Below, in pieces: positions 7,167 to 25,775 of a stretch of 34,106 nt of DNA. Where the stretch lies: contig PBDS01000013.1 in the NCBI GenBank assembly GCA_002718155.1, positions 1 through 34,106 on the forward strand. The letters run 5' to 3'. The first letter of the stretch is position 1. Each line of letters opens with the position of its first letter. A program made the position numbers and the translations under genes. A model generated the notes under the pieces. That model searched no databases and was not told the DNA's origin. It saw nothing but the letters and a program-made list of their open reading frames with translations. Source of the stretch: Pseudomonadota bacterium (GTDB lineage: Bacteria; Pseudomonadota; Gammaproteobacteria; Arenicellales; UBA868).

Positions 7167-8024
7167 ATGCGTATAGGTGTGCTGCAGCTAGATGATGTAA
7201 GGCTCGGTTTCGAATACAGAGAAGGTGATGGTGTCCCCATTGTGTTCATGGGTGGGGTGACTTCGACCACCGCAACCTGGGAACCCGTTCTTGAGCGTCT
7301 TGAAACCAGCCGCCCCATATACCTGCTGGACCACAGAGGACATGGCCGTTCTTCTCATATTGGAAGCGGCGACTATGCAAACTGGGTGGGGCAGGTTTCC
7401 GACACCTGCCAATTCCTGGAAAGAGTGAGTGGGCGTAGCGTTGTAGTGGGCCATTCACAGGGTGGAATTCAAGCCTTCTACGCTGCAGGGAAGAAGCCGC
7501 AACTGGTGGCAGGACTGTATTCAGAAGACATTGCGCCACACTTCGCCGCCAACAAGCGACACGTAGGAAGCGCCTTTATTGGCGCCTTGAAGAACATCGG
7601 TGCGGAGCTGGGAAAGGCGCTAGCCGCCGACGAACAAGGTTCGGGGATGGCTGCCAGGATTGCAGGAGTCTCCCTTGGTGGTGACATCACCTTCGGAGAT
7701 GTCAGATCGGATGAACAACTCCAGATCATGGCCGATGGTGTCCTACAAATGGACCCTAAGATTTTTACGACCTTTTTCGAAGACGATTCTGTTCCGTCCT
7801 TTGATCTAGACGACACGATTCGAGCGATTCAATGCCCTGTTCACTTTGCTTACGGAGTACCCGAGCTGGGTGGATTGTTCGTTGAGAGCGATTTGGACGA
7901 TTTACGAGATAAAGGTTGTGACGTCACTTCGACCAACTTTGAGGGCGTCGGTCACAGCGTTCATTTCGATGCTTTAGAACCGTTTGTAGAAGATCTTGCA
8001 GCTTTTCTAGAACGAGTCGACTAG
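7167..8024 (+). CDS. Alpha/beta hydrolase
   Basis: The 285-residue protein has an oxyanion/lid start (VFMGGVTSTTATWEPV), DHRGHGRSS and the nucleophile elbow GHSQGG (Ser ~97). The C-terminal histidine is in GVGHSVHFD. This is the haloperoxidase/epoxide-hydrolase-like branch of the superfamily; the substrate is not predictable. The frame opens at an ATG at 7149, but GGAGGTGGGC lies directly before the ATG at 7167, so I take 7167 as the start. It converges with the CoA transferase gene, leaving only ~41 bp between the stops. Confidence 0.82.
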   Translation: MRIGVLQLDDVRLGFEYREGDGVPIVFMGGVTSTTATWEPVLERLETSRPIYLLDHRGHGRSSHIGSGDYANWVGQVSDTCQFLERVSGRSVVVGHSQGGIQAFYAAGKKPQLVAGLYSEDIAPHFAANKRHVGSAFIGALKNIGAELGKALAADEQGSGMAARIAGVSLGGDITFGDVRSDEQLQIMADGVLQMDPKIFTTFFEDDSVPSFDLDDTIRAIQCPVHFAYGVPELGGLFVESDLDDLRDKGCDVTSTNFEGVGHSVHFDALEPFVEDLAAFLERVD

Positions 8025-8065
8025 ACCTCGCCCTTTCAATGCTGAGATGCATAGGTCTGTATCTA

Positions 8066-9364
8066 TCAGGGAATTACCAAGCTGATGATTTCCGCCGCCG
8101 CCGCCTCAATTGGAGCCAGTGCTTGGTCTACCTCTGCGGCGGAGAAACCCAGGTCCATCATTATTTCCGACGTATGCTCGCCGAGGTATGGCGGTGGGCG
8201 TCTCGCGCCTAAACCAGGCGTCTCACTCAACTGGACGACATTACTAACGACCTGTGTTGTGCCATAGTTCGGGACCGTGACCTCGGCAAGATAGTTGTTT
8301 GCGTCCGCTTGAGGGTCAACCAGGACCTCCTGATAGCTCTGCACTCGTTCATAAATAATCTCTGGTTGGTCACCAAGAAAGACTTCCCACTCGGCTGTTG
8401 TATGCGACGCAAAGGCTTCTCGAAGTTCAGCTCGAACTTCGGTGACCCCGTCGCCATCACCAAGAATTCCGATTCGTTTCGCCGCTGTGTTCCATCTGGT
8501 GTCGAGAGCTAGCTCAGGTTTCCCGCCATAAACGAGAAATTCGTCCCATGACTCATTTGACATTGCAACCGCCAAGAGAAACGAACCACCATCGGATGTT
8601 TGGTAGACCCCATAGGGGCTAGCGATACTGGGGTTGTATTGACCATCGCGTGTCAAAGAGACTCCAGTCATCGCTGTGTGAGTCAACTCCCAAGATTGCA
8701 ACCACATCATGGTTCCCAGAGCTGAAGTATTTACCTCCTGCCCTCGTCCGGTTTGTTCGCGGGCGAATAACGCGGTCATGATTCCTAAGCTGAGTTGCAT
8801 AGCGCCCGAATGGTCGGCGATTGCTGCGCCAGGTGGCATCGGAGGTCCATCAACGGGACCCGATACTGCTGCTAATCCGCCACGCGCTTGCGCCGCACCG
8901 TCCAGCATTGCTTTCTCGGCGTCTTTCCCTTTTGTCCCAAACCCGGAAACTCGTCCATAGATAAGGCGCTCATTTATTCTCCGCATGTGGTCATAACTCA
9001 AACTCATTCGATCCAGAGCTTCAGCCCGATAATTTGTTACAAACACATCGGATTTTTTTATTAATTCGTTAAGAACTCTTTTTCCGAGATCTGTATGGGC
9101 ATCTAGGGCTATTGATTTTTTCCCACGGTTCATAGCCACTTGCTGGCTACCCATTACTTCCATTCCATAGTCAAAACCTGGTCCCCGCGCGTACCGGTTT
9201 AACTCTCCGCCTGGAGGCTCAACCTTTATTACCTCCGCTCCCATATCACTTAGAAATGCTCCAACATGGGGGCCCTGAACGGCGACAGTCATGTCTAAAA
9301 CTTTCAGTCCAGTGAGCGGACCATCAGACAAATCTTTTGAAACCACTGTTTCGTTCCCCCTCAT
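8066..9364 (-). CDS. CaiB/BaiF family (class III) CoA transferase
   Basis: The 432-residue protein starts the fold with LKVLDMTVAVQGPHVG and FLSDMGAEVIKVEPPGGE. It carries the family's catalytic Asp at D184 (AIADHSGAM), where acyl-CoA and aspartyl-CoA intermediates form. Family members move CoA between carboxylic acids (carnitine, formate/oxalate, bile acids, 2-methylacyl). The base composition is more AT-rich than hyuAB. It lies between tRNA remnants 1 and 2 and is probably cassette cargo together with the hydrolase. A weak DosR-like box lies 67-80 bp upstream of its start. Confidence 0.88.
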   Translation of the reverse strand: MRGNETVVSKDLSDGPLTGLKVLDMTVAVQGPHVGAFLSDMGAEVIKVEPPGGELNRYARGPGFDYGMEVMGSQQVAMNRGKKSIALDAHTDLGKRVLNELIKKSDVFVTNYRAEALDRMSLSYDHMRRINERLIYGRVSGFGTKGKDAEKAMLDGAAQARGGLAAVSGPVDGPPMPPGAAIADHSGAMQLSLGIMTALFAREQTGRGQEVNTSALGTMMWLQSWELTHTAMTGVSLTRDGQYNPSIASPYGVYQTSDGGSFLLAVAMSNESWDEFLVYGGKPELALDTRWNTAAKRIGILGDGDGVTEVRAELREAFASHTTAEWEVFLGDQPEIIYERVQSYQEVLVDPQADANNYLAEVTVPNYGTTQVVSNVVQLSETPGLGARRPPPYLGEHTSEIMMDLGFSAAEVDQALAPIEAAAAEIISLVIP

Positions 9365-9430
9365 CTGCGCGCCTTAAAACTGAGGCACCCCTGCCTAACT
9401 ATTAATCATCACCCAAGTTGGCAGTCAAAT

Positions 9431-9444
9431 GGGACCAAACGACC
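9431..9444 (+). promoter_or_regulatory. Weak DosR-like box
   Basis: GGGACCAAACGACC differs at two positions from the box at 12431-12444 (GGGACCAAATGCCC). It lies upstream of the CoA transferase start at 9364. It is weaker than the other boxes. Confidence 0.3.
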
Positions 9445-9511
9445 GAGCCACCCCCAAGCTCTTTATTTCTTACCCCAATGTGTTTGTGGGGTGCGCCGAT
9501 CTGCGGTGGGA

Positions 9512-9562
9512 TGCACGACACGCAAGAGGTGACAGGTTCAACTCCTGTATCGCCCACCACAT
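9512..9562 (+). repeat. tRNA-Val 3'-half remnant 2
   Basis: About 50 bp match the tRNA-Val gene from the anticodon arm through the CCA, with two mismatches (TGCAC for TGCAT; GGTGAC for GGTCAC). The 5' half is absent, so this is a 3' duplication and not a functional tRNA. This is the expected product of site-specific integration at a tRNA 3' end. Confidence 0.85.
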
Positions 9563-9569
9563 CTGACCT

Positions 9570-9622
9570 GTGGGTCTGTATCTATACATGTGGACGCGGT
9601 ACTACGGGCACCCCCACAAGGC
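9570..9622 (+). repeat. 53-bp repeat, copy 2
   Basis: This pairs with 6628-6680. It keeps the inverted repeat TGTAT-CT-ATACA and a GGGCACCCCCACA block. It sits directly after tRNA remnant 2. A 13-bp piece (GGTCTGTATCTAT) also occurs at 8054-8066. Confidence 0.7.
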
Positions 9623-9704
9623 GAAAGATTTTGTAGAGTGCGTCGATTGAGTGACAGCAGAGTGGTTGCTCGTAGCTTGGGACCAAGATTTTTAGGGGAT
9701 TGAT

Positions 9705-10709
9705 ATGGCAAGACTTGGGTTTTGGCCGCCCGTCTATGGCAACTGGATTATCTCTACAGAGCAGGGTACGCGTGACGCTTCTTTTGCCTACACGAAAGAG
9801 GCAACCCTGCTGGCAGAGCGACTGGGCTTTGACACGATGCTTATCGCTGAACACTTCATGAATCCTGTTAGCCCAGACCTCAGTCAGCTAGATGCCTGGA
9901 CAACAGCAAGCGCTCTGGCTGCGCTAACAGAAAATATCGAAATCATTACTGCTGTTAAACCAGGGTTTCGAGCTCCAGGGGTCATCGCGAAAATGGCCAG
10001 TCAAATTGACCACATAAGCAACGGCCGCATGGCCATCAACTTGGTTTCTGCGTGGTGGTTGACGGAGTTTGAAATGCTGGGTGCCCCCGTATTAGCCCAC
10101 GATGACCGCTACGCACGATCCGAAGAATTCCTCGAGGTGATCGTGGGAAGTTGGACTGAGCAAGAATTCAGCTTCTCTGGCGAATACTACGAAGTGAAAG
10201 AAGCGACTCTTTCTCCCAAGCCGCTGCAGCAACCACATCCCCATATCTATATCGGGGGTGAATCGGAGCAGGGACGGACCTTGGGGGCCAAGATGGCCGA
10301 CACCTTCCTCATCAATGGCCGTCCACCCGAAGAAATTGACGAGATCGTCGGTCATGTTCGACGGCTAGCGCACAGTTACGGTCGCGAGCCCCGGTTCGGT
10401 ATGTCGGCATTCGTAATCTGCCGAGACACAGAAGATGAGGCCAAGCAGGAGTTCCAGCGCTTGCTAGAACTCCGCAAACTTGAACTTAAGGGCTACGACA
10501 CTGAAGTCGTAATGCTGAGGTCTGTGTCACCTGGCGGAGCGCTCGGGACAAACGGGGGCACCGCGGCAGGACTCGTGGGGACCCCAGAGCAGATTGCTGA
10601 GCGAATGGGACGTTTTGAGGATCTTGGGATCAAGACGTTTCTCTTCCAGTTTCACCCAGTAATCGAGGAGATGGAACGCTTCGGCGAGCAAGTCATGCCG
10701 TTGCTTTAG
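9705..10709 (+). CDS. LLM-class flavin-dependent monooxygenase (SsuD-like)
   Basis: The 334-residue protein has a luciferase-like TIM barrel. It shows WPPVYGNW at the N-terminus, AERLGFDTMLIAEHF, the strand NGRMAINLVSAWW and the typical PHIYIGGESEQGR block near residue 184. It most resembles the alkanesulfonate/dimethylsulfone monooxygenase branch (reduced flavin plus O2, C-S or C-N bond cleavage); the substrate is unproven. No flavin reductase gene is adjacent. GGGGA precedes the ATG. It is the first gene of the third cassette, followed within 60 bp by the MDMPI-like gene. Confidence 0.85.
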   Translation: MARLGFWPPVYGNWIISTEQGTRDASFAYTKEATLLAERLGFDTMLIAEHFMNPVSPDLSQLDAWTTASALAALTENIEIITAVKPGFRAPGVIAKMASQIDHISNGRMAINLVSAWWLTEFEMLGAPVLAHDDRYARSEEFLEVIVGSWTEQEFSFSGEYYEVKEATLSPKPLQQPHPHIYIGGESEQGRTLGAKMADTFLINGRPPEEIDEIVGHVRRLAHSYGREPRFGMSAFVICRDTEDEAKQEFQRLLELRKLELKGYDTEVVMLRSVSPGGALGTNGGTAAGLVGTPEQIAERMGRFEDLGIKTFLFQFHPVIEEMERFGEQVMPLL

Positions 10710-12430: not shown

Positions 12431-12444
12431 GGGACCAAATGCCC
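12431..12444 (+). promoter_or_regulatory. DosR-like box upstream of diiron operon
   Basis: GGGACCAAATGCCC lies 75-88 bp before the ATG at 12519. It fits the shared pattern RGGACCWWNNGYCC seen at six other places in the window. Confidence 0.6.
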
Positions 12445-12518: not shown

Positions 12519-13664
12519 ATGGCCATCACGAGTGATGAGGACCTTCGAAGCCTTGAACTCCCTTCAGAAACACCTATGGGTCAGCCGCTCGACTGGGCGT
12601 GGTTGCGTGGAGCTCGCTCCGAATGGGGAATGAAACCTGTACCAGGACCGCGTGGGCTGACGATGATGGACATCGCTACCGGAAGTTATGGCGAGATAGA
12701 GGAAGAGCCACAATTTCGGTCTATGGCTCCAAGGGGCTCAGATATTGACGAAAACACCCCAGACATGGGGTACATCCTTAATCACAAGTCTCAGGTCTGG
12801 GCGGATAATGTGATTGAGCTATATGAAGAGGCTGTAGCCCGCCAGTGGTCGTCTACCAGGGATATTCCTTGGGGTGACCTTAGAGAACTTCCTTCCGATA
12901 TCGAACACGCAATGTGTCAGTTATGCACGGTACTCACTGAAATAGAAATGATTGCCACGGACCTGCCGGCGAAGTGGATGTGGCGAATGAATCACCACTT
13001 CTTAGAAGCAAAGATGTTTCTTTCGACTCAGATCATGGACGAAGCTCGTCACAGTGACGTATTCAGAAAACGGGCTTTGGCCAACGGCGGTGGCCTGCTG
13101 GTGTCGCGCGCTGGGTCGGAAAGCTTGCTACGTACCATTCTCGAAGCCAAGACCTACACCCAGGCCTCAGCGCTTCTCCATCTTCTGGGCGAGGGATTTA
13201 TCCTCGACATCTTCCGTCAGGGGGAGCTAATCGCTCCAACGCCGGTGGAAAAAAAGATCTTTCGCTTATCGATGCAAGACGAAGCTCGTCACGTCGCATA
13301 CGGGACGATGCACATCCGACAGGCCATCGCGGGCGATCCTGACGTTGAAGCGGAAATTCACGAGGCTCTCGACCATGGCGAAAAAGTATTTGCCGAATTT
13401 GGTACCCAACCCGACCTGTCTTCGGCCTTGGCAGTCTTGCTTGCTGGAGGGGTTGAGCATATCGAAGAGCGGGGTTTCCCGATGCAGTCAACGATGGCCA
13501 CCAAGATCTTCACTTCTTATCTAGCTAGATGTGAGCGCGCCGGTCTGAACCGGATCGATCGCACATCGTTGCCGCTCGATTTACTAGGGATTGACCGTGA
13601 CCAGTTCACACGCGAAGGGGTCAGACCGACGAAAGAAAGGGGTGAAGATGGCTTACGTCACTGA
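12519..13664 (+). CDS. Ferritin-like diiron protein (candidate oxygenase/oxidase)
   Basis: The 381-residue protein carries a ferritin/ribonucleotide-reductase-R2-like four-helix diiron site. It has acidic residues on the first helix around E141/E143, DEARH at 174-178 (E175, H178), Glu in GEGF (E225), and a second DEARH at 254-258 (E255, H258). The two EARH motifs are nearly identical. Such sites activate O2 for hydroxylation, desaturation or N-oxygenation. The family is not one I can name. GAGGAGAG precedes the ATG. It heads an operon of four overlapping genes that includes a ferredoxin, which points to an electron-fed monooxygenase rather than iron storage. DosR-like boxes lie upstream. Confidence 0.8.
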   Translation: MAITSDEDLRSLELPSETPMGQPLDWAWLRGARSEWGMKPVPGPRGLTMMDIATGSYGEIEEEPQFRSMAPRGSDIDENTPDMGYILNHKSQVWADNVIELYEEAVARQWSSTRDIPWGDLRELPSDIEHAMCQLCTVLTEIEMIATDLPAKWMWRMNHHFLEAKMFLSTQIMDEARHSDVFRKRALANGGGLLVSRAGSESLLRTILEAKTYTQASALLHLLGEGFILDIFRQGELIAPTPVEKKIFRLSMQDEARHVAYGTMHIRQAIAGDPDVEAEIHEALDHGEKVFAEFGTQPDLSSALAVLLAGGVEHIEERGFPMQSTMATKIFTSYLARCERAGLNRIDRTSLPLDLLGIDRDQFTREGVRPTKERGEDGLRH

Positions 13665-14085
13665 ACTCCGTTATTACCAAGAACTGGCAGCTCTCATGAA
13701 CGCCCACCCTGAGGATTATGAAGTCCTCGGTGAAGTCGACTTGAACTTAGGTCTGGTGATGACCGGTCAAGCCGCCGATCTCAGGGTGAAGCTGCAGTTT
13801 GAAGGTTTGGGGTGTACCGAGGTGTCCGCGCTCGAGGAGGGCGGAGAACACTCCTGTGACTGTTGGCTTGAGGGAGATCTTGAAGCCTGGGGAGAAATGT
13901 TCGATGACATCCTTGTGAACGGGATGGCCACGGGCCGGAAGACAGTGAACAGCCTCACATTGCTGGGAGACCGAATTGACATCCGAGCAAATGATCCCCT
14001 AGGGAAAGACCTCTTTTTTCGCTTTAATCAAACCGTTCAGCAGTTCCTAGACGGTGCCGCCGAGCTGGAACAATCAGTCGTATGA
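13648..14085 (+). CDS. SCP2-like small protein
   Basis: The frame extends upstream to 13591, but GAAAGGGGTGAAG directly precedes the ATG at 13648, which I take as the start (145 residues, overlapping the diiron gene by 17 nt). The C-terminal half (LEAWGEMFDDILVNG, then LLGDRIDIRAND and FFRFNQTVQQFLDG) resembles a sterol-carrier-protein-2/lipid-binding domain. In some catabolic proteins this domain binds hydrophobic ligands or acyl-CoAs. In this operon it may present the substrate to the diiron enzyme; that role is inferred from context only. Confidence 0.6.
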   Translation: MAYVTELRYYQELAALMNAHPEDYEVLGEVDLNLGLVMTGQAADLRVKLQFEGLGCTEVSALEEGGEHSCDCWLEGDLEAWGEMFDDILVNGMATGRKTVNSLTLLGDRIDIRANDPLGKDLFFRFNQTVQQFLDGAAELEQSVV

Positions 14086-14309
14086 AAGGTCGGAATATGG
14101 AAGCTATGCCTTGCCCCCATTGCGACACACCCCTCGACAAGGTGCTTGATCTCCCCTACGGCTACTGGCAGTGGGACGGCGAACGCTATGTCTTGGCAAC
14201 AACTGCTGAGACTGTCGACGTAGCGCCCTGGGTATGCATCAACTGTCTGACTTCGCTACGTAAGTTCCACCCTCAAGACATCACAACCGCGACCTTGAAC
14301 ACCGAGTGA
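14082..14309 (+). CDS. Small zinc-ribbon protein
   Basis: The 75-residue protein has two cysteine pairs, CPHC (C11, C14) and CINC (C52, C55), the spacing of a zinc ribbon or rubredoxin-like knuckle. The segment between is aromatic (PYGYWQWDGERY). The ATG lies in an ATGA overlap with the upstream gene, and its TGA overlaps the GTG of the ferredoxin gene. Internal ATGs at codons 6 and 9 are possible starts. It could be a structural or redox accessory subunit. No known family is recognised. Confidence 0.65.
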   Translation: MKGRNMEAMPCPHCDTPLDKVLDLPYGYWQWDGERYVLATTAETVDVAPWVCINCLTSLRKFHPQDITTATLNTE

Positions 14310-14749
14310 GCCATTTTGTACTTGCGGAAGAATGCATCGGTTGTGGCGCGTGCGAATTTGTTTGTCCTCGCAATGCTCTCCTTAAGACGGACAGTTTCCT
14401 TGGGCTATTCATTATCAACCCCTTCATATGTGATGACTGCGGCGACTGTGTGGAGAAATGTCCGGTGTGGGCCATTGAACCTGACCCAGAGTGGGCCGTT
14501 TGCTACGGCCCTGGCTGCCCGCTCAGTTCACGTCGCCTAAGGAAGTTCGAATGCAACGTTTGGCAGGCCCCATGCCACAAGTGTGGGTCACCTTTGTGGC
14601 GACAACCAGCGAGGAGTGAGGAATGGGTTTGTCCGGTGTGCGATATGGCGCTACGTGTCCGCTGTCCACGCGTCCATAAGCTCAGTGGGGTTGAGGAAAG
14701 CCATCCCGAGCTTGTTGAATCGTTGTGTCGGAACAATTCCCGAGGCTAG
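14306..14749 (+). CDS. 2[4Fe-4S] ferredoxin with C-terminal zinc-ribbon cysteines
   Basis: The 147-residue protein starts at GTG 14306 (GTGA overlap). Two classical clusters are visible: C10-x2-C13-x2-C16-x3-C20-P and C42-x2-C45-x2-C48-x3-C52-P. A cysteine-rich extension follows, with C66, C71, C83, CHKC (90-93), CPVC (109-112) and C120. The extension is unusual for a plain ferredoxin and looks like added zinc ribbons. It likely delivers electrons to the diiron protein encoded three genes upstream, since the four overlapping genes must be co-translated. The electron source (a reductase) is not in the window. Confidence 0.82.
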   Translation: MSHFVLAEECIGCGACEFVCPRNALLKTDSFLGLFIINPFICDDCGDCVEKCPVWAIEPDPEWAVCYGPGCPLSSRRLRKFECNVWQAPCHKCGSPLWRQPARSEEWVCPVCDMALRVRCPRVHKLSGVEESHPELVESLCRNNSRG

Positions 14750-14832
14750 TTAGCTGAGTCGCAGATGCCGTCACACTCGAAATGATTCAAGACGGTTTTG
14801 TCCACCAGGATTCGGCTTACCTCATCGAGGAT
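14746..14832 (-). pseudogene. Remnant of an acyl-CoA dehydrogenase C-terminus
   Basis: The minus strand reads DEVSRILVDKTVLNHFE before a stop that overlaps the ferredoxin stop codon. The acyl-CoA dehydrogenase at 25776-27026 ends in DEVHRILVAKTVLNHVE. The reading frame is closed by TGA just upstream (14833-14835), so only about 28 codons survive. This is a degraded gene end, not an expressed gene. Confidence 0.7.
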
Positions 14833-16290: not shown

Positions 16291-16710
16291 TCAACTAGGT
16301 GCCTGAGGCAAGGTTTTTAGGTAGACGGTCACGTCTTTGAGGGCGTCATCACTTAGTGCGGGATTACCGCCTCTCGATGGCATTTGGATTCCTGTTGTGT
16401 TCTCAGGGTCCGACGGGCCTCGGCCTTTGATCAAGAAGCCGACCAAATCTGCAGTGCTGTTAGTGGTGATGAAGTCAGTACCCGCCAAGGGTTTGCCGAG
16501 TCCCGGTCGTCCACCCGCGTCGGGTGCATGACAGGATGCACAGTTCTTGAGGTAGACCCTCTCACCCTCGATCGGATCTCCCCGGGGACTTTCCTCGGAA
16601 GATGATTCAGCAGTGTCGGCTAGGTTCTGAGTTTCATTGGAGGCCTGGCTTCCGCAGCCGAAGAGCAATGCTGCAAACGACAGGGAAACCAATAATTTCT
16701 TGGTGCTCAT
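16291..16710 (-). CDS. Lipid-anchored c-type cytochrome of the nos cluster
   Basis: The 139-residue protein has a lipoprotein signal (ALLFGC, Cys19), an acidic Ser/Glu linker, the haem motif CASCH (C57, C60, H61) and a likely axial Met in IQMPSRGG (M110). It is a class I monohaem cytochrome c on the outer face of the membrane. It starts in an ATGA overlap with the nosL stop, so it is the last gene of the nos operon. It is a candidate electron carrier to NosZ, comparable in place to the NosC-type cytochromes of clade II clusters. Confidence 0.85.
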   Translation of the reverse strand: MSTKKLLVSLSFAALLFGCGSQASNETQNLADTAESSSEESPRGDPIEGERVYLKNCASCHAPDAGGRPGLGKPLAGTDFITTNSTADLVGFLIKGRGPSDPENTTGIQMPSRGGNPALSDDALKDVTVYLKTLPQAPS

Positions 16711-17219
16711 TTTCGTGTCTCCGTGTTCTTAGGGTGGTGGGCTGTTGATGTGTGCGCTGCCAATTGATCGATCAGATCTGTCCAGTTCATGACCGTTGCC
16801 TCGTGAGTGGTTGCGGCTTTTCTTGCTGCCGTAAGCGATGAGTGCGCAGCGAAGCCTGAGGCCATCGGAGAGACCAGATTCTGGGAGTGAACGAACCATG
16901 CTTTGGTCGCTGGAATTGGCTCTCTGGTCGAGTAGTCGAAAACCCAGATTGAAGTGGTTTGGACCTCTGGTTCTGTGATGCTGTGAGTGGCCATCTCCCC
17001 GATGTCGTCAAAGACTCGCTCTGTTCCGTCTGCGAGCCTGTAGGCCGCGGCGAAGCGAATGTCGTCGATAGTCATGTGGCATTCGGTGCATAAAGATCGC
17101 CCTTCAATGATTTGAGGCGGCCCGGCTGCTGGTTGATTGGCGCAAGCTCCGGGGATCACAGCAACTGCGAGGAGAACTAAGGAAAGGGACGCATGGTGCC
17201 TTGGGGGGTGTGTCTTCAC
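16707..17219 (-). CDS. nosL: NosL, copper chaperone lipoprotein
   Basis: From GTG 17219 (170 residues) the protein has a lipoprotein signal with PGAC (Cys26). It then has the NosL copper motif CTECHM (C44, C47, M49), FDDIGEM and WFVHSQNLVSPMASG, all hallmarks of NosL, the chaperone that supplies Cu(I) for NosZ CuZ assembly. The frame is open to 17276. The GTG at 17219 overlaps the nosY stop (GTGA) and has AAGAAGGGA upstream, so it is preferred. Confidence 0.9.
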   Translation of the reverse strand: MKTHPPRHHASLSLVLLAVAVIPGACANQPAAGPPQIIEGRSLCTECHMTIDDIRFAAAYRLADGTERVFDDIGEMATHSITEPEVQTTSIWVFDYSTREPIPATKAWFVHSQNLVSPMASGFAAHSSLTAARKAATTHEATVMNWTDLIDQLAAHTSTAHHPKNTETRK

Positions 17220-18097
17220 GCTTGGTCCCTTCTTTGGAACACCTGTACCGATAAAGCCAAGGGGACAGCCGTCCACAAGCCGAGAACGAGAATCGCAAGC
17301 GCGGCGACTCCTCTACCGAAAGTGTCCACGGCGTATGTGCCGGCTGGCCCCAAGGCATCCAACGAGCCTTCGAGAGAGATCACCGTGGCTAGACGGAATG
17401 CTTCGACCGGGTTCAATAGCGCGGCTGCGAACAAGGTTTCGGTCGGCAGCTGGGTTGCGACTGTGGCACCCATGAGCCCGAGATCGCCTAGGAACACCAT
17501 GCAGAACCAAACCGAAATGGCGACGCCTAGTGCAGCCGAACCTCTCTGAACCAAAGTGCTAACTAATACGCCGATAGCAACCGTGGCTGCTACGAGAAGG
17601 CAGGACAGGGCCGTCAGGCGAAGCAACAAACCTGGATCAATAGGGTTACCGCGAAGAGCGCTGAAAACTCCGGCGACTCCGAATCCGAGCAATACGGATG
17701 CCGACATTGCTGCTACATGGCCTGCGAAGGTCCCAAGGAGCACTTGAGTCCGCGAGACGGGATGGGTAAGCAAGAATACGAGTGTCTTAGATTCGCGCTC
17801 AGAGGAAAGTTGACGCGCTCCGAGGGTCAACGACATGAGGGTAATTACCAATTGGACTAGCGCGATGAGAGAGGCCAGGGCTCGGCCGAAGCCCCCCGAG
17901 CTTGTTAAAGTTCGGTGCTGCGTCGCAGTCACGGTTATAGCTGCAGCGAGAAGTGCGAAACCTCCCGCGTAGGTCCAAAACCACCAGTCTCGTCTGGCTT
18001 CTTGAATCACCTTGCTTGCAATGACCACCGGGGGGTAGTTGCGCGGTGGCGTGCGGTTACTTCCCGTGAACGAAACGATTCTGATAGTCACCGCCAC
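17216..18097 (-). CDS. nosY: NosY, ABC-2 type permease
   Basis: The 293-residue protein has about six hydrophobic segments, with the motif LSSERESKTLVFLLTHPVSR between the second and third. That motif is typical of NosY/ABC-2 permeases. With NosF it forms the ABC transporter that works with NosD in NosZ copper-site maturation (established for NosDFY). The start is GTG 18097 or, by analogy with the GTGA couplings in this operon, GTG 18091 overlapping the nosF stop. nosL follows with overlap. Confidence 0.9.
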   Translation of the reverse strand: MAVTIRIVSFTGSNRTPPRNYPPVVIASKVIQEARRDWWFWTYAGGFALLAAAITVTATQHRTLTSSGGFGRALASLIALVQLVITLMSLTLGARQLSSERESKTLVFLLTHPVSRTQVLLGTFAGHVAAMSASVLLGFGVAGVFSALRGNPIDPGLLLRLTALSCLLVAATVAIGVLVSTLVQRGSAALGVAISVWFCMVFLGDLGLMGATVATQLPTETLFAAALLNPVEAFRLATVISLEGSLDALGPAGTYAVDTFGRGVAALAILVLGLWTAVPLALSVQVFQRRDQA

Positions 18098-18942
18098 ACC
18101 TCGAAATCCAAAACGTCGAAGCGCGCATTGTGAAGAAATGTGAGAGCGTCTGCTTTTTCTTTAGCGGAAACTTGGAGTAGAACTCCGCGTCCGTATTGCT
18201 GGGATTGGTAGCCAGCTGCTTCAAGGCGTGTCTGGGCAGGAGCAGCCTGGTGAGGTGGCAGGGTTACGTTCAGCCATGACTGGATTCCCCAGGTCGATGT
18301 AAATGCCTTTGAGGTGCACTCCCCAACTTTGCGCCCTGCGTCTAGTGCTATGACGTGATCGGTGAGCATCTCTACTTCTTGAACACGGTGAGAGGTGAGA
18401 ACGAAGGCCCTTCCAGGTCGCTTCAATGACTGCAGTAAGGCTGCAGTTTGGCGTTGAGTGTCAAGATCTAACGATGATGTTGGTTCGTCAAGGAGGAGGA
18501 TTAAGGGGTCAGCGAGGAGGGAAATTCCGATAGCGAGACGCTGGCGCATTCCACCCGAGAGGTCAGCAACTCTTTTTCTCCCCGGTTCCGCGAGATTCAG
18601 TAGATCTGCTGTCTCAGATACCAGGTCAAGTGACAAATTTCTCAGTCGGCATGAGAGAGCGAGTGTCTCATTGATGGTGAGGGCTCCGTAGAGTGCAGGT
18701 TCTTGGGGTACATAGCCGATGAGAGATCGCGCAGCGGTCGAGTCCCGCTTGGTATCGAAACCGGCGACTGTTATGTGACCCTGGTGAGAGATCAACCCCA
18801 AGATGCAACGGATTACGGTGGTTTTCCCGGCCCCGTTAGGGCCCCATAGTGCTACTGATTCGCCGGTAGCGACGTTGAAACTGAGGTCGTCGACGACGAT
18901 GCGGCCTTTGTAGGCCTTGGTCAGATGCTTAACCTCAATCAC
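18088..18942 (-). CDS. nosF: NosF, ABC transporter ATPase
   Basis: From GTG 18942 (284 residues) the protein has Walker A WGPNGAGKT (33-41), a Q-loop in YVPQEPALYG, the signature LSGGMRQRLAI, Walker B LILLLDEPTSSLD and the switch His in LTSHR. It is the NosF-type ATPase partner of NosY and NosD. The frame is open to 19038, but GGAGAG lies six bases before GTG 18942 and that start just overlaps the nosD stop, so it is preferred. It would hydrolyse ATP at the inner face of the membrane. Confidence 0.92.
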   Translation of the reverse strand: MIEVKHLTKAYKGRIVVDDLSFNVATGESVALWGPNGAGKTTVIRCILGLISHQGHITVAGFDTKRDSTAARSLIGYVPQEPALYGALTINETLALSCRLRNLSLDLVSETADLLNLAEPGRKRVADLSGGMRQRLAIGISLLADPLILLLDEPTSSLDLDTQRQTAALLQSLKRPGRAFVLTSHRVQEVEMLTDHVIALDAGRKVGECTSKAFTSTWGIQSWLNVTLPPHQAAPAQTRLEAAGYQSQQYGRGVLLQVSAKEKADALTFLHNARFDVLDFEVWR

Positions 18943-21070
18943 TTGTCTCTCCGTGTGAGGGTGTGTGATCACCAACGAATCGGTCAGGTCGCGCAATCGA
19001 CAATCCTGCGATGAGTAGAAGGACCGATGTGAGAGCAAGTGCGGGGCGGTTTGTGTTGTGCTGCCCGAACGACAAGGTGGGAAGATTCGGCGGCGCAGCC
19101 AGAGGCGCGACGTCGGTGAGAATGGGATTGGGTCTCAGGTGGGGGAAGGTTCGGCCCGCGACATCTATGGCGGTGGCGGCAAGAGTTCCGGAAAAGAACC
19201 GGAGGTTGGGGTACCTCGTTTGAAGGTTTCCGAAGAGATTGTCAACTTCGTAGGGCGTATCGCCTATGCCGTCTTGGTTGGAGTCGTAGCCCGAATAGTC
19301 GCTCCAGTAGTTGCCGATGCCGTCTTTAGACCAATAGTTGGCTTCAAGGCCTCCGGTGCTGTCAGAAGTGACATGCTCACCGTTGTCGATAAATGCGTTT
19401 CCGGTGAATGTGTTTCGGGCCACGGTGGAACCCAGCATCGCCCCAATGTTGTTAAACGCGAATACGTTCTCCTCGATGTTGTGAGATACACCGACTTTGC
19501 TTGGTGAGTTATCGACATAGAGTCCTGATCGGTTTTCAACGAAGTGATTCTTGTTTGCCTTCAACCCATCTACATCTTTGATTCCCAGTCCATAGCCGCT
19601 CGGTCCTCTGTTGGACCTGAAGATGTTTCCTGAGACGACAAGGTCTGTGCTGTACATGAGAAACGCGCCAACCGAATTGTGTTCCAAGAGGTTTTCTTCG
19701 ACTGTGGCGCCATCTGAGTACATGAAGTGCAGGCCATAGCGGCCGTCTTCGACGTGGTTGCGACGAACGGTGATTTTGTCTGTGAACCAGAAAACGGCAT
19801 CTCGGCCGCCGATTAGATGGTTTCCTTCCACGACTGCTGTTGAACTTTGCCAAAGTCTGATGCCATCGCCCCGTCGAGCGATAAAGAGATCCATGCTTTG
19901 AATGTCATTGTTGGCGATGTGCGCGCCGTTCGAACGCCGAAGGAACATCCCGAACAGCACTTCCTTAAATCGGTTACCCCGGATGTCGATTCTGGGACTC
20001 GTGGTAGAGCTGATACCGGCGTCTTCCCGATCTAAGCGAGATCCGCTATTTCGAATAACGAGCCCCTCAATTCTTACGTCAGGGGCCCGTACCTCGATGA
20101 CTGAACCAAGCCCCTGACCATCTACTACTGGCCAGTCGGTGCCAACGAGTGTGAGGGGTTTGGTAATCAAGACCCCGCCCCGGTACATGCCCGGGGCGAG
20201 CTCAACTACTCCGCCAGGTTCTGTCGCGTCGATAAGGACTTGAAGATCAACCCACTGGGTCTCACGGTCGATGGAAAGGGCGTCAGCTGAGGTACTGGTT
20301 CCAATACCAACCGCGAGGGTAGCCCCGGCGGCAAGAAGTGATCTTTGAACTACTCGTCTTCGGAACGGGTCTTTCCGGCTACCTACCGAGCTATCGGATG
20401 CTCCGTCTGTAAAGTTGTCTCCTGGCGGCGTCGACAGGGGCTTGTACGCCCGGCGGTGCGAGATCATCCCAGCGGCGGCAAGCGCCGACGCTGTTAGAGC
20501 CATCAAAAGCCCCCACCCTGGCCATGCCAGAGTGTCGAACTGAGCGATGCTTCCCGAACCGAAAAGCGGTGGAGTGAACTCGCCGACTGCATGAGAGAAC
20601 GGCGCTCTTGGGTCGAGGCTGTGGCCATAATTCCATAACCAGTACTGAAGGTCAGCCAGAAAGAACAAGGGAAACAGAACTGTGGGTCCTGCGAGAGTCA
20701 AAGCCCAGCGACTGTGCACATAATGGCCGGCTAGCAGCAGAGCCGCGAGTGTGAGGATCCCTGCAACAGAGACGGTTCTCTCCAGAACTGCACCGTCGGC
20801 AAAAGAAGGTAGGCCGATGTAGTGATTGAGTCCCTCAAGTTCTTGCACGTCTCCCTCAAGGCGGTTCACCCACAACGTGACTCTCAACCCGTCTGGATAT
20901 TGCGGAGCTTTGAGCTTCAACTCCCAGTAGGGCAAGAAGATTGACGAGCCGAGCAAGATGGAGGACAACGTCAACAAGCGCTTAGGTCGCTGATAGGTGT
21001 CACGATGTTGGCTAGCTTCGACAGCTGACACACGAGGCCCCAAGATTCGCTCAATGAGTGCGGGGGGCAT
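18935..21070 (-). CDS. nosD: NosD fused to an N-terminal membrane domain
   Basis: From ATG 21070, with an ideal GGAAGGAGGCGA site, the protein has 711 residues; ordinary NosD is ~400-450. Residues ~30-235 form a membrane domain of about four segments containing APQYPDGL and LNHYIGL. I recall these motifs from the small nos-cluster membrane proteins of clade II types. A second hydrophobic stretch after RRRVVQRS (~260) probably leads the beta-helix out of the cell. The NosD part (~280-640) has repeated carbohydrate-binding/sugar-hydrolase (CASH) turns such as GLHFMYSDG and the NYWSDYSGYDSNQDGIGD block. A C-terminal membrane anchor follows. It acts with NosFY in CuZ assembly. Confidence 0.9.
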   Translation of the reverse strand: MPPALIERILGPRVSAVEASQHRDTYQRPKRLLTLSSILLGSSIFLPYWELKLKAPQYPDGLRVTLWVNRLEGDVQELEGLNHYIGLPSFADGAVLERTVSVAGILTLAALLLAGHYVHSRWALTLAGPTVLFPLFFLADLQYWLWNYGHSLDPRAPFSHAVGEFTPPLFGSGSIAQFDTLAWPGWGLLMALTASALAAAGMISHRRAYKPLSTPPGDNFTDGASDSSVGSRKDPFRRRVVQRSLLAAGATLAVGIGTSTSADALSIDRETQWVDLQVLIDATEPGGVVELAPGMYRGGVLITKPLTLVGTDWPVVDGQGLGSVIEVRAPDVRIEGLVIRNSGSRLDREDAGISSTTSPRIDIRGNRFKEVLFGMFLRRSNGAHIANNDIQSMDLFIARRGDGIRLWQSSTAVVEGNHLIGGRDAVFWFTDKITVRRNHVEDGRYGLHFMYSDGATVEENLLEHNSVGAFLMYSTDLVVSGNIFRSNRGPSGYGLGIKDVDGLKANKNHFVENRSGLYVDNSPSKVGVSHNIEENVFAFNNIGAMLGSTVARNTFTGNAFIDNGEHVTSDSTGGLEANYWSKDGIGNYWSDYSGYDSNQDGIGDTPYEVDNLFGNLQTRYPNLRFFSGTLAATAIDVAGRTFPHLRPNPILTDVAPLAAPPNLPTLSFGQHNTNRPALALTSVLLLIAGLSIARPDRFVGDHTPSHGETSD

Positions 21071-21108
21071 TCGCCTCCTTCCGGGAATGCATTGATGGAC
21101 CGAACAAA

Positions 21109-23097
21109 TCAATTCGGTTCAACTAGGAAATATCCAGCCATTTCAAGGTGGAGTGCCGAGCAGAATTCAGTGCAGTAATAAGTGAACACACCGTCGTTCT
21201 TGGCTTCGAACTCAATGGTGGCTGTTTCTCCTGGCTCAAGACTGAGGTTGATGTTGTATCCCGGTATCGCGAAACCATGGGTTGCATCCTCCGAGGTCTC
21301 GACGTTGGTCAGGTTCCAGGTGACGTGATCGCCCTGCGTTACTGTCACCCGCTCTGGAGTGAAATGACTTCGCATCAAGGTCATATCGATGGTCACCTGG
21401 TTGCCGTTCCTGGTTACTCCTTCGGAGCCGATCTTGGGAGCGCCGGGTTTCGGGGCCATCGACCCTGGATCCCACCCCACTTCGGGGTAAACCGTCATAG
21501 GTTGCAACTTGTCGGCCTTGATGATTTGCGCGTAGTGGGGTTCACCATTAGCGACGGGCATGTCATACAGCAGCTGCATGTCAGGGCCCGGTTTGCTGAT
21601 ATCGACCAGCTGGAAGTTCTGGGGATACAGGGGTCCGGGATGGAAGAAGCGATCAAGGGACCATTTATTGAGCGAAACTAGGTACTTGCCATCAGGGGAC
21701 ACGGTGTCACCCTCTGCAGTCACCACATGTCCAACGTTGTAGTGAATGTCAACAGTGCCTTCGAGCTTCCAGCCATCTTCCCTGTATGGCGAACCCAAGC
21801 TCCAGCGGGCAACATCTGAATCAAGGAAAAGGCTCGTATAGGCGTACCCCTGGTCATCGAATTGGGTGTGGAGTGGTCCTAAGCCCACTTCGACTTGAGC
21901 TTCAACCACGTCATCAAAATCCAGCAGGGGAATTCCGTATTTGTCGGTGTCGAAACTTCCGGCTGCGATCGCTTCCTGGATTTTGGCAAACGAATAAATT
22001 GTCACATGGGGGTCAAGTTTTCCTGAGACAACGATGTAATCGCCCCTAGGGGCAATGTCGACTCCGTGAGGGCTCTTTGGTTCCGGAGTGAAATACAGCA
22101 AGTCATTAGCTATCGCTGTGTCAATCGTGATGAGGGGGAAGCCGTTGACCTCGACTGTTTCACCTGCAGCGGCGACCGCCACGGCCGCGTCTAGATCGAT
22201 GATGTGGAGATAGTCATTTTCGCCGGCGCTCGCACCAGACTCGAAGTATTCGCTGTTTTCAAGGTCATCAGGGTTCAAGCCTGTTGACATCTCGACATTG
22301 AACGAGTTGCAGAAAATCCAACCTTTCGAGACTGCCTTTCCCGAATCACACACGTCCTGCCAGTACGGCGGTAGTTCCATACCGAAAGAAGCCTCTGGAT
22401 CGATCCTGCCCGCAGCTCGATCGAATTTCCAAAAGGTAATCATTCCGCGATATTGGGTGGAGTAGTTGTCCAGCGGTGCGTAATCCCATGCCAGCGGTGA
22501 GGCATATTGGCCACCTTCGATGACCCATTCAGTGTCAGGCGTTACAAACGTCCCTCCGTGATCGTTGATTGATAGTGGGTTCTTCAGAATTTGCTTAGTT
22601 TCGAAGTCTCGAAGATCGATCAGGGCGACCCTGGCGTTTGCCTTATCGTTGATGAATAGAAACTCGCCGTCGTAGTCACCGTTTGTCTCCGATAGGGCTG
22701 GGTGATGAGTGTCTCCCCAGGTGAGCACCTCGCCATCAACGGCACCAGCGGCAAATAACTCTTTGTGGTGTTCATCGCCGTACCCCCAGCCTTGCCAGGG
22801 CTCGGGGGTGAATACGGCGATTGACTTGAGCATGCGCATTGAGGGAATACCGAAGACGAACACCTGGCCACCATGACCGCCTGAGGAAAACATGATGTAT
22901 TCATCGATGACACCGCTGGGTGTATAGGTCTTCAACGCTGCGGCGATGTCGGCATCGCTGAGACCGCGCTCTGCGGCTATCTGGGCTGCGTCAGACCCCA
23001 ACTCAGAACTTGTTCCATTACTCGTACAAGCTGAGGCAATTAATAAAAGCGCAGCGAATGCCGCGAATCGGCCTACCGACAGGGATGCGTTCCTCAT
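21109..23097 (-). CDS. nosZ: NosZ, nitrous-oxide reductase (lipoprotein type)
   Basis: The 662-residue protein reduces N2O to N2. All seven CuZ histidines are present: H131/H132 (DTHHP), H180 (NDHGG), H344 (SPHGV), H410 (PLHTQF), H457 (VGHVV) and H521 (EPHYAQ). The C-terminal cupredoxin domain has the CuA ligands H607 and C642-C646-H650-M653 (YCTEFCSALHLEM). The export signal is a Sec lipoprotein signal (LLIASAC, Cys24), not the twin-arginine signal of clade I, which fits clade II NosZ and an anchored enzyme outside a monoderm membrane. It heads the nosZDFYL-cytochrome operon. A DosR-like box lies 77-89 bp before the ATG. Confidence 0.97.
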   Translation of the reverse strand: MRNASLSVGRFAAFAALLLIASACTSNGTSSELGSDAAQIAAERGLSDADIAAALKTYTPSGVIDEYIMFSSGGHGGQVFVFGIPSMRMLKSIAVFTPEPWQGWGYGDEHHKELFAAGAVDGEVLTWGDTHHPALSETNGDYDGEFLFINDKANARVALIDLRDFETKQILKNPLSINDHGGTFVTPDTEWVIEGGQYASPLAWDYAPLDNYSTQYRGMITFWKFDRAAGRIDPEASFGMELPPYWQDVCDSGKAVSKGWIFCNSFNVEMSTGLNPDDLENSEYFESGASAGENDYLHIIDLDAAVAVAAAGETVEVNGFPLITIDTAIANDLLYFTPEPKSPHGVDIAPRGDYIVVSGKLDPHVTIYSFAKIQEAIAAGSFDTDKYGIPLLDFDDVVEAQVEVGLGPLHTQFDDQGYAYTSLFLDSDVARWSLGSPYREDGWKLEGTVDIHYNVGHVVTAEGDTVSPDGKYLVSLNKWSLDRFFHPGPLYPQNFQLVDISKPGPDMQLLYDMPVANGEPHYAQIIKADKLQPMTVYPEVGWDPGSMAPKPGAPKIGSEGVTRNGNQVTIDMTLMRSHFTPERVTVTQGDHVTWNLTNVETSEDATHGFAIPGYNINLSLEPGETATIEFEAKNDGVFTYYCTEFCSALHLEMAGYFLVEPN

Positions 23098-23173
23098 CGC
23101 TCAATTCCATTCCGTTGAACCATCTGTGAATGTCAACGGAACTGATTGTCGCTACGGATTGAGCGACCAACTA

Positions 23174-23186
23174 GGGACCAAGGCCC
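23174..23186 (+). promoter_or_regulatory. DosR-like box (13 nt) upstream of nosZ
   Basis: GGGACCAAGGCCC, flanked as AGGGACC-A-AGGCCCT, is one base shorter than the other boxes but has the same half-sites. It lies 77-89 bp upstream of the nosZ start in the 259-bp gap between nosZ and the regulator gene. Confidence 0.45.
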
Positions 23187-23356
23187 TCATCTCAGCGTTT
23201 TCTCTAGATTGTTTCCGGCTGCTGAAGCCAAAGCCCCGTTGTTAATGGCCAGGCTTTCGCAAGGGGTTATCAAGGAAATGCACGCTGTGTGATTGTCCTT
23301 TCATGCAATTCGGTGCTTCAACGAAGGACGTGCCGTCTGAGACGGGCGCGTGCGGT

Positions 23357-24022
23357 TTAGTCGGGGGTATGGCGGCTTCGTTCGGCGCGACGTGCTGCCA
23401 TAGCTGCGGCTTCTGCTCTTCGGTTGACCCCAAGCTTGTTGAAAAGACTTGTGATGTAGTTCTTGACTGTCTTTTCGGCGATAAATAACGTTTCGCCGAT
23501 TTGTCGGTTGGTGAGCCCATCACCGATCAGTTCGAATATTCGGAGTTCTTGTGGGGAAAGGTCAGCGGTTCCATCACGGGTGGAGAGCCGAGTGCGAGCT
23601 TGAGCTATCACTTTCGCCCGCTCATCATTGGAGTAGATGGGTTGGCCTGCCGCAATGTGGTGGAGGGTTTTTGTGAGGTCGAAGCTCCTGATCTCTTTAA
23701 CCATGAAGGCTTCAGCTCCCGCCTCTAAGGCCTCTATGAGTAAGGCGTCGTCATCAAAGGAGGTCAACACTACGGTAGTGATTTCAGGGAGATCTTCTTT
23801 TAGTTGCCTTACTAAGTCGATGCCACTTCCGTCGGGCAGTTGAACGTCTATGACAGCGATGTCTGGCCGGAGGCCGCGCAACAGAGGTAAAGCTTCGGTA
23901 ATGGATCCAGTAGTCGCAACAATGTGAAATTCGCCGTCTGCTTGGAGAAGATCGGAAAGCCCGCTGCGGACGATTTCATGGTCGTCGAGTATGAGAACCC
24001 GAGTCGGTTCGGAGGCAGTCAT
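23357..24022 (-). CDS. DosR/DevR-like NarL-family response regulator
   Basis: The 221-residue protein has a receiver domain with the acidic pair D13/D14, phospho-acceptor D59, T87 and K109, then a LuxR/NarL-type helix-turn-helix. The recognition helix reads FIAEKTVKNYITSLFNKLG. It matches the mycobacterial DosR helix, where the two Lys and Asn of EKTVKN contact the GGGAC half-site; here these are K184, K187 and N188. The start overlaps the kinase stop (ATGA). It is the obvious reader of the DosR-like boxes before this operon and nosZ. Confidence 0.9.
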   Translation of the reverse strand: MTASEPTRVLILDDHEIVRSGLSDLLQADGEFHIVATTGSITEALPLLRGLRPDIAVIDVQLPDGSGIDLVRQLKEDLPEITTVVLTSFDDDALLIEALEAGAEAFMVKEIRSFDLTKTLHHIAAGQPIYSNDERAKVIAQARTRLSTRDGTADLSPQELRIFELIGDGLTNRQIGETLFIAEKTVKNYITSLFNKLGVNRRAEAAAMAARRAERSRHTPD

Positions 24023-25140
24023 TGGCTTTTCTCAGGGATCTGCCATCTAGCGATGGTCCAAAGATTTGTGATGTCTCGGCTGACAGTAAATTGTCCACCA
24101 TGTCGCGCAGCGCGTGAGCGAAGGTTGGGTATGCCGTTGCCTTCGGGACCTTCGAAGGTAAACCCCGGGCCGTCATCGCGCACTTCGATCGATAATCCTT
24201 CGGAGTCATCGATGATGACGGCGACGCGTCTTGGGTTCGCGTGACGGATCGCGTTTGTAAGTAACTCTCGAATCACTGAGTCGATGTCTGAGACAAGGCT
24301 TTCAGCCAGTCCTTCAAGTAGGTCTGTGCCCTTGAGTGCTGTCAGCGAAGCGCTCGAAGACTGTAGTGAGGCTTCGATGGTGTTGCGGATTCTGACCGAA
24401 CTCGGCTCTCCCTCGCGATGTCTTTGGAGATCGAAAATGGCTTGCCGAAGATCGGCGATGGTGTCATCGAGTTCATCAATGGTTGATTCGATGCGGCGAG
24501 CCATTGGTTGTTCGATGATTGCTGAAACCGCCTGGAGAGTCAGTCCGCAAGCGAACAGCCTCTGAATCACAGAGTCATGGAGATCACGAGCGATTCGCTC
24601 TCTATCGTTAGCGACGAGTAGCCGGGCGTGAGTGGTCCGGCTTCGGTCCTCCAGTGCCTTACGTTCGGTGACATCTCGAACGACGGCTATGACCCAGATC
24701 TTCCCATCAGTCGCGGGTAGCGGGCTCAGGGAGATTTCGACGGGTACTTCGTGACCGTGCTGATGTAGTGCGTGTAAGTCGAGGTTGTTACCCATGGGGC
24801 GAGTTTCTGCCGCCATTTGGAAACGCTTCCGGTGGTTGGCGTGCGCTTTTCGTAGGCCAGCGGGCATTAGAGCGTCGACGCTCATTCCCATGAGGTCACG
24901 TGGGGCGTATCCGAGAATGTCGGTAATTCGATGATTGACGTAGACAACCGAACCATCTGGATCTACCAACATCACAGTGTCAGGTGCCGTTTCTATTAAT
25001 GCCTTAACGAGACCTGTGATGTCAGTACCTATCGCACCTGCGGCGAGGTCAAGTCCGTTGGTATCGAGTTCAAACACGTCACGCACTTCCGATAGGTACG
25101 GTGAACGATAGGCCGGATTTGCCACCGAAGTAATTGACAC
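24019..25140 (-). CDS. PAS sensor histidine kinase (DevS-like core, HisKA_3)
   Basis: The 373-residue protein has no membrane segment. A PAS domain covers ~47-160 (VDPDGSVVYVNHRITDILGY to VVRDVTERK). The dimerisation/phosphorylation helix RIARDLHDSVIQRLF carries H188, and the ATPase domain has N (LLTNAIRHA) and G (DDGPGF) boxes. The core is very close to mycobacterial DevS/DosT, but the two GAF domains (haem sensor) are absent and replaced by a single PAS. The signal could be oxygen, NO or redox through a PAS cofactor; this is inferred. GTG 25140 is 22 bp after the cupredoxin stop. Confidence 0.88.
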   Translation of the reverse strand: MSITSVANPAYRSPYLSEVRDVFELDTNGLDLAAGAIGTDITGLVKALIETAPDTVMLVDPDGSVVYVNHRITDILGYAPRDLMGMSVDALMPAGLRKAHANHRKRFQMAAETRPMGNNLDLHALHQHGHEVPVEISLSPLPATDGKIWVIAVVRDVTERKALEDRSRTTHARLLVANDRERIARDLHDSVIQRLFACGLTLQAVSAIIEQPMARRIESTIDELDDTIADLRQAIFDLQRHREGEPSSVRIRNTIEASLQSSSASLTALKGTDLLEGLAESLVSDIDSVIRELLTNAIRHANPRRVAVIIDDSEGLSIEVRDDGPGFTFEGPEGNGIPNLRSRAARHGGQFTVSRDITNLWTIARWQIPEKSQ

Positions 25141-25162
25141 TCGAAGCCAACGCTTTCCGGGC

Positions 25163-25585
25163 CTACTTGACGACGGTGAGGGTCGCGACCATGCCAGCGT
25201 CCTTGTGGCCGGGAAGCTCGCAGATCAATTGGTACGTCCCTGCGGCCAGCTGCCCTACATCGAGTTGGGAAGTGCTATCGGCAGGCAACGTTTCGCTTAG
25301 GGGGCCTCCGACAAGCCGAACGTTGTGTTCAATAACTCCCTTGTTAGCTAGCTGCAGAATCACACCACCGGCGGGAACTAGGAGATCACCTTCGATGAAA
25401 AACTCGCCCAGGTCTAGATTTACCTTGGATGACGCAACGCTCGCGGCTTCCGGAGTCAGGTCCTTGTCTTGGGAAGTCGTCGGCCATGGGCGTCCCGAGG
25501 TGTCGTAGGCGCCCGCCGCACATCCGAACGCGCACGACGTCAGAACGAATAAAACGAGTACAAGCTTGGGCCGAGACAACTTCAC
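25163..25585 (-). CDS. Cupredoxin lipoprotein (blue copper, plastocyanin-like)
   Basis: The 140-residue protein has a lipoprotein signal (Cys18 or Cys22), then a beta-barrel domain with type 1 copper ligands: H87 in IEHNVRL, C122, H127 and M132 in ICELPGHKDAGM. This is the standard C-x4-H-x4-M loop. It would carry single electrons at the outer membrane face and is a plausible donor to NosZ, alongside the cytochrome at the other end of the cluster. It is the first gene of the operon with the kinase and regulator. The DosR-like box at 25638 lies 53-66 bp before the ATG. Confidence 0.88.
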   Translation of the reverse strand: MKLSRPKLVLVLFVLTSCAFGCAAGAYDTSGRPWPTTSQDKDLTPEAASVASSKVNLDLGEFFIEGDLLVPAGGVILQLANKGVIEHNVRLVGGPLSETLPADSTSQLDVGQLAAGTYQLICELPGHKDAGMVATLTVVK

Positions 25586-25637
25586 TCCCGTAGTAAGTGG
25601 CTGACTGAAGCATGACCGGTGACAGCGCCGGTTGGCA

Positions 25638-25651
25638 GGGACTTAGGTCCT
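25638..25651 (-). promoter_or_regulatory. DosR-like box upstream of cupredoxin-kinase-regulator operon
   Basis: It reads GGGACTTAGGTCCT on the plus strand (AGGACCTAAGTCCC on the minus strand). It is the best match in the window to the mycobacterial core GGGACTWWAGTCCC. Its place before the operon that encodes the regulator suggests autoregulation. Confidence 0.65.
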
Positions 25652-25775
25652 GTTGCCCATGGCTTTGGTGACCCCAAAAAACAGGAAGCTGAAAAGGCCC
25701 TGGAGGCGCCGATCCACCCAACTGGGTGCCCTTCCCTTACCCGCGAGAAGTGGAACATCTGGAACAGCTCCAAAG

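Follow-up and report, generated by a model that had tools for sequence, protein, structure and literature searches.

An operon of four overlapping genes, here called A to D, encodes a real, conserved and unnamed system, probably a type of ferredoxin-fed diiron oxygenase. Its diiron enzyme is constantly paired with a lipid-carrier-type protein, a combination that, as far as could be found, is undescribed. The reading that is narrowly favoured here is that of a soluble, self-contained, ferredoxin-dependent and ferritin-like diiron oxygenase or oxidase, served by a dedicated SCP2-type carrier and belonging to a low-oxygen regulon.

The operon was recognized by reading the open reading frames of a stretch of 34,106 nt, referred to below as the window, in which it occupies positions 12519-14749 of the plus strand. 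Its genes are the following:

12519-13664, plus strand: gene A, putative ferritin-like diiron oxygenase/oxidase of 381 aa, with invariant ligands and a predicted fold matching ADO, VlmB, R2lox and sMMO.
13648-14085, plus strand: gene B, SCP2-fold carrier-type protein of 145 aa.
14082-14309, plus strand: gene C, small putative zinc-ribbon protein of 75 aa.
14306-14749, plus strand: gene D, 2[4Fe-4S] ferredoxin of 147 aa with a C-terminal zinc-ribbon tail and a GTG start.

The ATG of B is found 17 nt inside A (an overlap of 17 nt), and the B/C (ATGA) and C/D (GTGA) overlaps are of 4 nt each, the GTG being taken as the start of D because an MS start is conserved among the relatives of this protein. 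The original prediction had described a four-gene operon with an overlap at every junction, and the coordinates and overlaps of all four frames agree with it. Translational coupling of A to D is likely in the window operon, but the "obligate co-translation" that had been claimed is overstated. Indeed, gaps of about 10-50 nt separate B from C and C from D in many relatives, and coupling is therefore not a fixed property of the system. An Rfam search revealed no riboswitch upstream of the operon, its only matches being two tRNAs elsewhere, and PADLOC showed no defence link for the operon.

The two DEARH motifs of A, already seen in the original prediction as helices of an oxygen-activating diiron centre, cover residues 174-178 and 254-258; none of the 43 aligned relatives departs from their D, E, R and H. 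In the same relatives, E141, E143, E175, H178, E225, E255 and H258 are conserved (one row is truncated at E225), the helix-1 ligand being either E141 or E143 as alignments differ by one or two residues. Such an E / ExxH / E / ExxH pattern on a four-helix bundle places A, at the fold level, in the ferritin-like diiron superfamily. The predicted model (pLDDT 88, pTM 0.89) has cyanobacterial ADO as its top fold matches (Z 20.5, rmsd 2.0, 207 aligned residues), together with VlmB (Z 19.7), R2lox (Z 19.1) and sMMO (Z 18.5); fold comparisons of helical bundles reach a Z of about 13 without meaning, and the values of 18-20.5 obtained for A are well above this level. Since only about 1.5 Z separates the scores of ADO, VlmB and R2lox, the fold of A picks no reaction. 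It nevertheless groups A with O2-activating ferritin-like enzymes and not with storage ferritins, in line with what had been predicted, and a check against known non-oxygenase ferritin families yielded no match for A.

Family models give sub-threshold matches only, with the ribonucleotide-reductase small chain PF00268 in Pfam (17.7 bits for a cut-off of 33.6) and R2lox in NCBIfam (34.4 bits for a cut-off of 194). All 43 relatives behave like A, with a weak but consistent R2lox match. A further likeness to R2lox is F182, an invariant Phe at the R2 radical-tyrosine position, 4 residues after the helix-2 His; this residue and the low PF00268 score led to the rejection of A as a class Ia/Ib ribonucleotide reductase R2. 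A was also rejected as an R2lox, on its score far under the cut-off and on position 220, which is Leu or Met in the 43 relatives where R2lox has its cross-link tyrosine. This position was mapped by spacing, the tyrosine of the Val-Tyr ether cross-link being located 5 residues before the helix-3 Glu. Membership of the ADO family by sequence was dismissed as well, because no ADO family appeared at E<=1 in the Pfam or NCBIfam scans.

The first match of the A profile among solved structures is VlmB with its homologue (E 1.7e-05), which would suit an AurF- or VlmB-like N-oxygenase acting in a small amine or hydrazine pathway. This reading is nonetheless very improbable. A seventh His, 4 residues before the helix-4 Glu (H225 in Dob3), is reported to be characteristic of ferritin-like diiron N-oxygenases (PMC13061610), whereas the corresponding position 251 of A is C, T, A, S or V and never His in the 43 relatives, a feature on which A was rejected as a member of the AurF-type N-oxygenase family. 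In addition, no AurF family matched A in the Pfam scan and no amine biosynthesis genes recur near the operon.

The closest known enzymes, ADO and the azoxy synthase VlmB (with its Kitasatospora homologue), share with A the ferritin-like four-helix diiron fold (Z 19.7-20.5) and the ligand pattern, but their identity to A is only about 13-18% over the aligned part, and A carries about 100 extra N-terminal residues. According to PMC3691600, ADO was reconstituted with its cognate electron-transfer system including ferredoxin. The partners of A are an SCP2 protein and a 2[4Fe-4S] ferredoxin, and not an acyl-ACP reductase as for ADO. On its predicted model, A thus stands within the oxygen-activating ferritin-like diiron fold group, in none of the named families tested.

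Besides the diiron enzyme, the partner proteins turned out as first proposed: B as SCP2-like, C as a probable zinc ribbon and D as a dicluster ferredoxin whose tail is a zinc ribbon. B matches the T. thermophilus SCP2 by profile search (E 0.0012), and its model (pLDDT 95) displays the SCP2 alpha/beta fold, with a Z of 13.7 and an rmsd of 2.3 over 123 residues to 2cx7, the structure of this protein. No Pfam SCP2 match for the single sequence of B reaches the cut-off, so that its putative lipid-binding cavity is deduced from the fold only. C displays a CPxC...[C/H]xxC pattern that is conserved in 19 relatives and looks like a zinc ribbon, and the Cys/His alternation at one ligand position argues for zinc. 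D has a pair of CxxCxxCxxxCP motifs, and its scores against Fer4 families exceed the cut-off. Its Cys-rich tail matches the zinc ribbon PF06677 just above the threshold (24.8 bits, cut-off 24.1) and is present in actinobacterial forms only, as judged from the alignment.

SCP2 carriers are known elsewhere to serve lipid oxidation. UbiJ binds hydrophobic quinone intermediates through its SCP2 domain for O2-dependent hydroxylases, whereas UbiT is the SCP2 carrier of O2-independent ubiquinone synthesis and works beside 4Fe-4S proteins (PMC6747719). Both resemble B, by proposal, as small SCP2 proteins dedicated to a lipid-oxidizing machine, but the enzymes that they serve are other hydroxylases and not ferritin-like diiron proteins. 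B itself is closer to the T. thermophilus SCP2 than to UbiJ (Z 8.6).

A scan of 84,980 species genomes yielded 113 relatives of A, the best 80 of which were kept; the window and L003, an additional genome, bring the set to 82 loci. In this set, B directly follows A in all 80 readable loci, two contigs ending first, which is far more than chance; D is present in 59 loci and C in 44. The A-B pair ranges over Actinomycetota, Chloroflexota, Binatota, Entotheonella and MAGs labelled Delta-, Alpha- and Gammaproteobacteria, and no relatives of A were found on viral contigs. Gene content clusters on the A tree, whose deep nodes have weak support, with some long branches among them, a limit that bears on the order of gain and loss. 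The A-B-C-D arrangement characterizes an Acidimicrobiia-type clade, to which C is restricted, and A-B-D a tree group of Chloroflexota, Binatota and MAGs labelled delta-, alpha- and gammaproteobacteria. In two subclades, one of 12 Binatota/delta-labelled rows and the other of 2 Entotheonella rows, no D lies close to A-B, which means that D is either not indispensable or supplied from elsewhere. The constant core of the system is therefore A-B, usually with D, the zinc-ribbon parts being found only in the actinobacterial branch. Conservation of gene order across phyla, proposed initially as a check, is confirmed for A-B, often with D, so the set is not confined to the window, whereas the complete four-gene set is limited to the Acidimicrobiia-type loci.

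More distant forms of A also occur. In a sample of 296 genomes from the class to which one Acidimicrobiia member belongs, 30 have A-family matches, a few of which are distant paralogues. Distant paralogues of 355-371 bits stand beside amidohydrolase genes without B-D. Two loci, L139 (3894-7665) and L140 (1352-5347), display such a paralogue followed by two amidohydrolase-type genes in a catabolic-looking cluster. An actinobacterial contig that also bears an A-B-C-D operon (L036) includes at 12707-14774 two tandem diiron genes that resemble A, accompanied by a small ORF of zinc-ribbon type, the pair being possibly a two-subunit cousin of A. From these distant and tandem paralogues, A is regarded as one branch of a larger unnamed family. 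On a Rhodococcus opacus plasmid (L085, 3384-7435), a molybdopterin oxidoreductase, a ferritin-like protein distantly like A and the ferredoxin FdxA are encoded in a row. In L003, A-B-D is directly followed by a CbbQ/NorQ-type AAA ATPase and a NorD-type VWA protein (7295-10422); this candidate maturation pair was set aside, being in no other locus.

The DevR/DosR-type regulon is known from mycobacteria. In the window, three features relate the operon to such a control:

12431-12444, plus strand: palindrome GGGACCAAATGCCC of DosR type, at 88 bp upstream of the start of A, an invariant block in 9 relatives.
23357-24022, minus strand: DevR/DosR-like response regulator, likely the regulator of the box.
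24019-25140, minus strand: PAS-domain histidine kinase, likely the partner of the regulator (PAS, HisKA_3 and HATPase_c matches).

When the upstream DNA of nine close relatives is aligned, GGGACCWAATGCCCTA is the outstanding conserved block, the window copy being the box listed above. With a DosR-type palindrome allowed at most 2 mismatches at -160 to -50 from A, a box is present in 30 of the 46 Acidimicrobiia-type loci, compared with 1.6% of equal windows elsewhere in the same loci; these loci are related and do not represent 46 independent events, although the sites vary in sequence and position yet persist, and the rows of the window and its close relatives are not independent of the consensus, which was picked after viewing them. 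Restricting the search to at most 1 mismatch leaves 20 of 46 loci against a background of 0.55%. Outside this clade, only one of 32 loci carries a box, and that locus (L016) nests in the clade by tree. The isolate Aciditerrimonas ferrireducens (L049), which has A-B and a D-like gene in divergent orientation, shows no clear box. The best solved-structure match of the window regulator is M. tuberculosis DevR (180 bits, E 3.6e-52), followed by VraR (107 bits). A similar regulator was found in the genomes of all ten relatives tested, some with a box just upstream of the regulator gene. The DosR-like control that had been suspected from the window thus gains statistical support from the boxes, along with the DevR-like regulator. 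Like the mycobacterial hypoxia regulon, this one combines a DevR-like response regulator with GGGACYWWRGTCCC-type boxes, but it belongs to a different actinobacterial class. A genome-wide count of DosR boxes in the window's own MAG (G000) was discarded, as the rest of this MAG seems to be another organism's.

We know of no DosR-regulated operon with a diiron/SCP2 pair. In the open-licence literature, DosR together with diiron was not found among the matches listed, nor was a diiron/SCP2/ferredoxin cluster or a report of Acidimicrobiia with DosR.

Further genes of the window also have counterparts near the operon in relatives:

25776-27026, minus strand: acyl-CoA dehydrogenase, an immediate neighbour of the operon in close relatives.
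27092-27105 and 27143-27156, unstranded: two DosR-type boxes between the acyl-CoA dehydrogenase and luciferase-like genes, with equivalents in relatives.
27235-28338, plus strand: luciferase-like monooxygenase (Bac_luciferase match), near the operon in three close relatives.

In the window, this divergent pair (25776-28338) is found 11 kb from the operon, from which it is separated by a nitrous-oxide-reductase cluster, the DevR-like regulator/kinase pair and a cupredoxin-like gene. Where the contigs of close relatives extend far enough, the acyl-CoA dehydrogenase comes right after the operon, and in three of these relatives copies of the luciferase-like gene that are 84-86% identical lie at +3.7 kb from A, with DosR-type boxes upstream of these genes. 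In several close relatives, this region is followed by a cytochrome oxidase operon, also behind a box. An association of A with luciferase-like genes outside the closest clade was judged weak and abandoned, identities being mostly 24-37% and such genes being common in these genomes.

A fatty acid desaturase and a flavin reductase adjoin the operon in close relatives as well. With these neighbours and ADO as the top fold match, A might be a deformylating, desaturating or C-C cleaving enzyme, ADO-like or BioE-like, that acts on a fatty aldehyde or acyl thioester and yields an alkane, an alkene or a shortened acyl group. BioE, a diiron oxygenase of the ferritin-like type that takes part in biotin synthesis, acts on long-chain acyl groups and needs an external electron donor, according to the part of PMC12915131 that describes it; it is likened to A at the level of fold type, by its ferritin-like diiron ligand set, and that part of the source mentions no SCP2 or ferredoxin partner. 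This specific form of the best explanation is given a small chance. VlmB and R2lox are as close in fold as stated above, no ADO Pfam match exists and no aldehyde-forming acyl-ACP reductase is recognized beside the operon; the acyl-related neighbours are clade-specific.

The segment between the operon and the acyl-CoA dehydrogenase gene (16291-25773) includes a Sec-type N2O reductase cluster (nosZ, nosD, ABC genes, nosL, cytochrome c) beside the DevR-like regulator and PAS kinase, and further DosR-type boxes are found at 15476, 23174 and 25638. From its sequence, this arrangement suggests an actinobacterium in which DevR-type control governs N2O reduction, and the neighbourhood as a whole looks like an island of low-oxygen genes.

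The main rival of the oxygenase reading starts from the same surroundings: A with ferredoxin D would be a reductase or scavenger of O2, NO or peroxide in hypoxia or nitrosative stress, B being there for structure or docking and not as a substrate carrier. A response to low O2 or NO is consistent with the DosR-type box and the DevR-like regulator, the operon is near the N2O reductase cluster in the window, and a low-potential dicluster ferredoxin suits a reductase. Scavenging is nevertheless unlikely, as the fold of A groups with substrate-oxidizing diiron enzymes, no flavodiiron or rubrerythrin family matches A in the Pfam and NCBIfam scans, and an SCP2 partner, present in every readable locus, would be needless. 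Moreover, proteobacterial and Binatota copies lack the box, several of them having a divergent TetR gene instead.

The source of the window contig deserves a comment. A is 83-87% identical to proteins of Acidimicrobiia contigs and the contig has Acidimicrobiia-like genes, whereas the remaining MAG (86% completeness) has LptD and no WhiB. Judging by these gene contents, the contig is probably misbinned.

Under the favoured oxygenase reading, the SCP2 cavity of B would take up a hydrophobic molecule, such as a fatty acyl group, a fatty aldehyde or an isoprenoid, which B would present to A as the substrate. The reduced ferredoxin D, docked or organized in a complex via its own zinc-ribbon tail and the zinc-ribbon protein C, would pass electrons to the diferric centre of A. 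Once in the diferrous state, this centre (E141 or E143, E175, H178, E225, E255, H258) would activate O2 and oxidize the substrate. In Acidimicrobiia, a DevR/DosR-type regulator would induce the operon when oxygen falls, together with the acyl-CoA dehydrogenase, luciferase-like monooxygenase and terminal-oxidase genes. UbiJ, as an SCP2 carrier, and BioE, as a diiron enzyme with acyl substrates, serve as precedents for this reading. Against it stand the A-B loci that have no D close by and the metabolic genes flanking A-B, whose identity is not conserved across phyla.

Although the family of A is found in several phyla, none of the libraries searched has a curated model for it, and diiron oxygenases keep giving new chemistry. 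The constant SCP2 pairing is a concrete handle on the substrate class of A. The DosR-type box makes the physiology testable, raising the question of why an O2-consuming enzyme is made as oxygen runs low, and extends the mycobacterial type of regulon to mostly uncultured Acidimicrobiia. More tentatively, and as a possibility still in doubt, the system may represent an uncharacterized class of lipid-modifying diiron oxygenases in which a dedicated SCP2 protein ferries the substrate and electrons come from a zinc-ribbon ferredoxin, under DevR-type control when O2 is scarce. If so, O2-requiring lipid oxidation would continue in these organisms even when oxygen is scarce.
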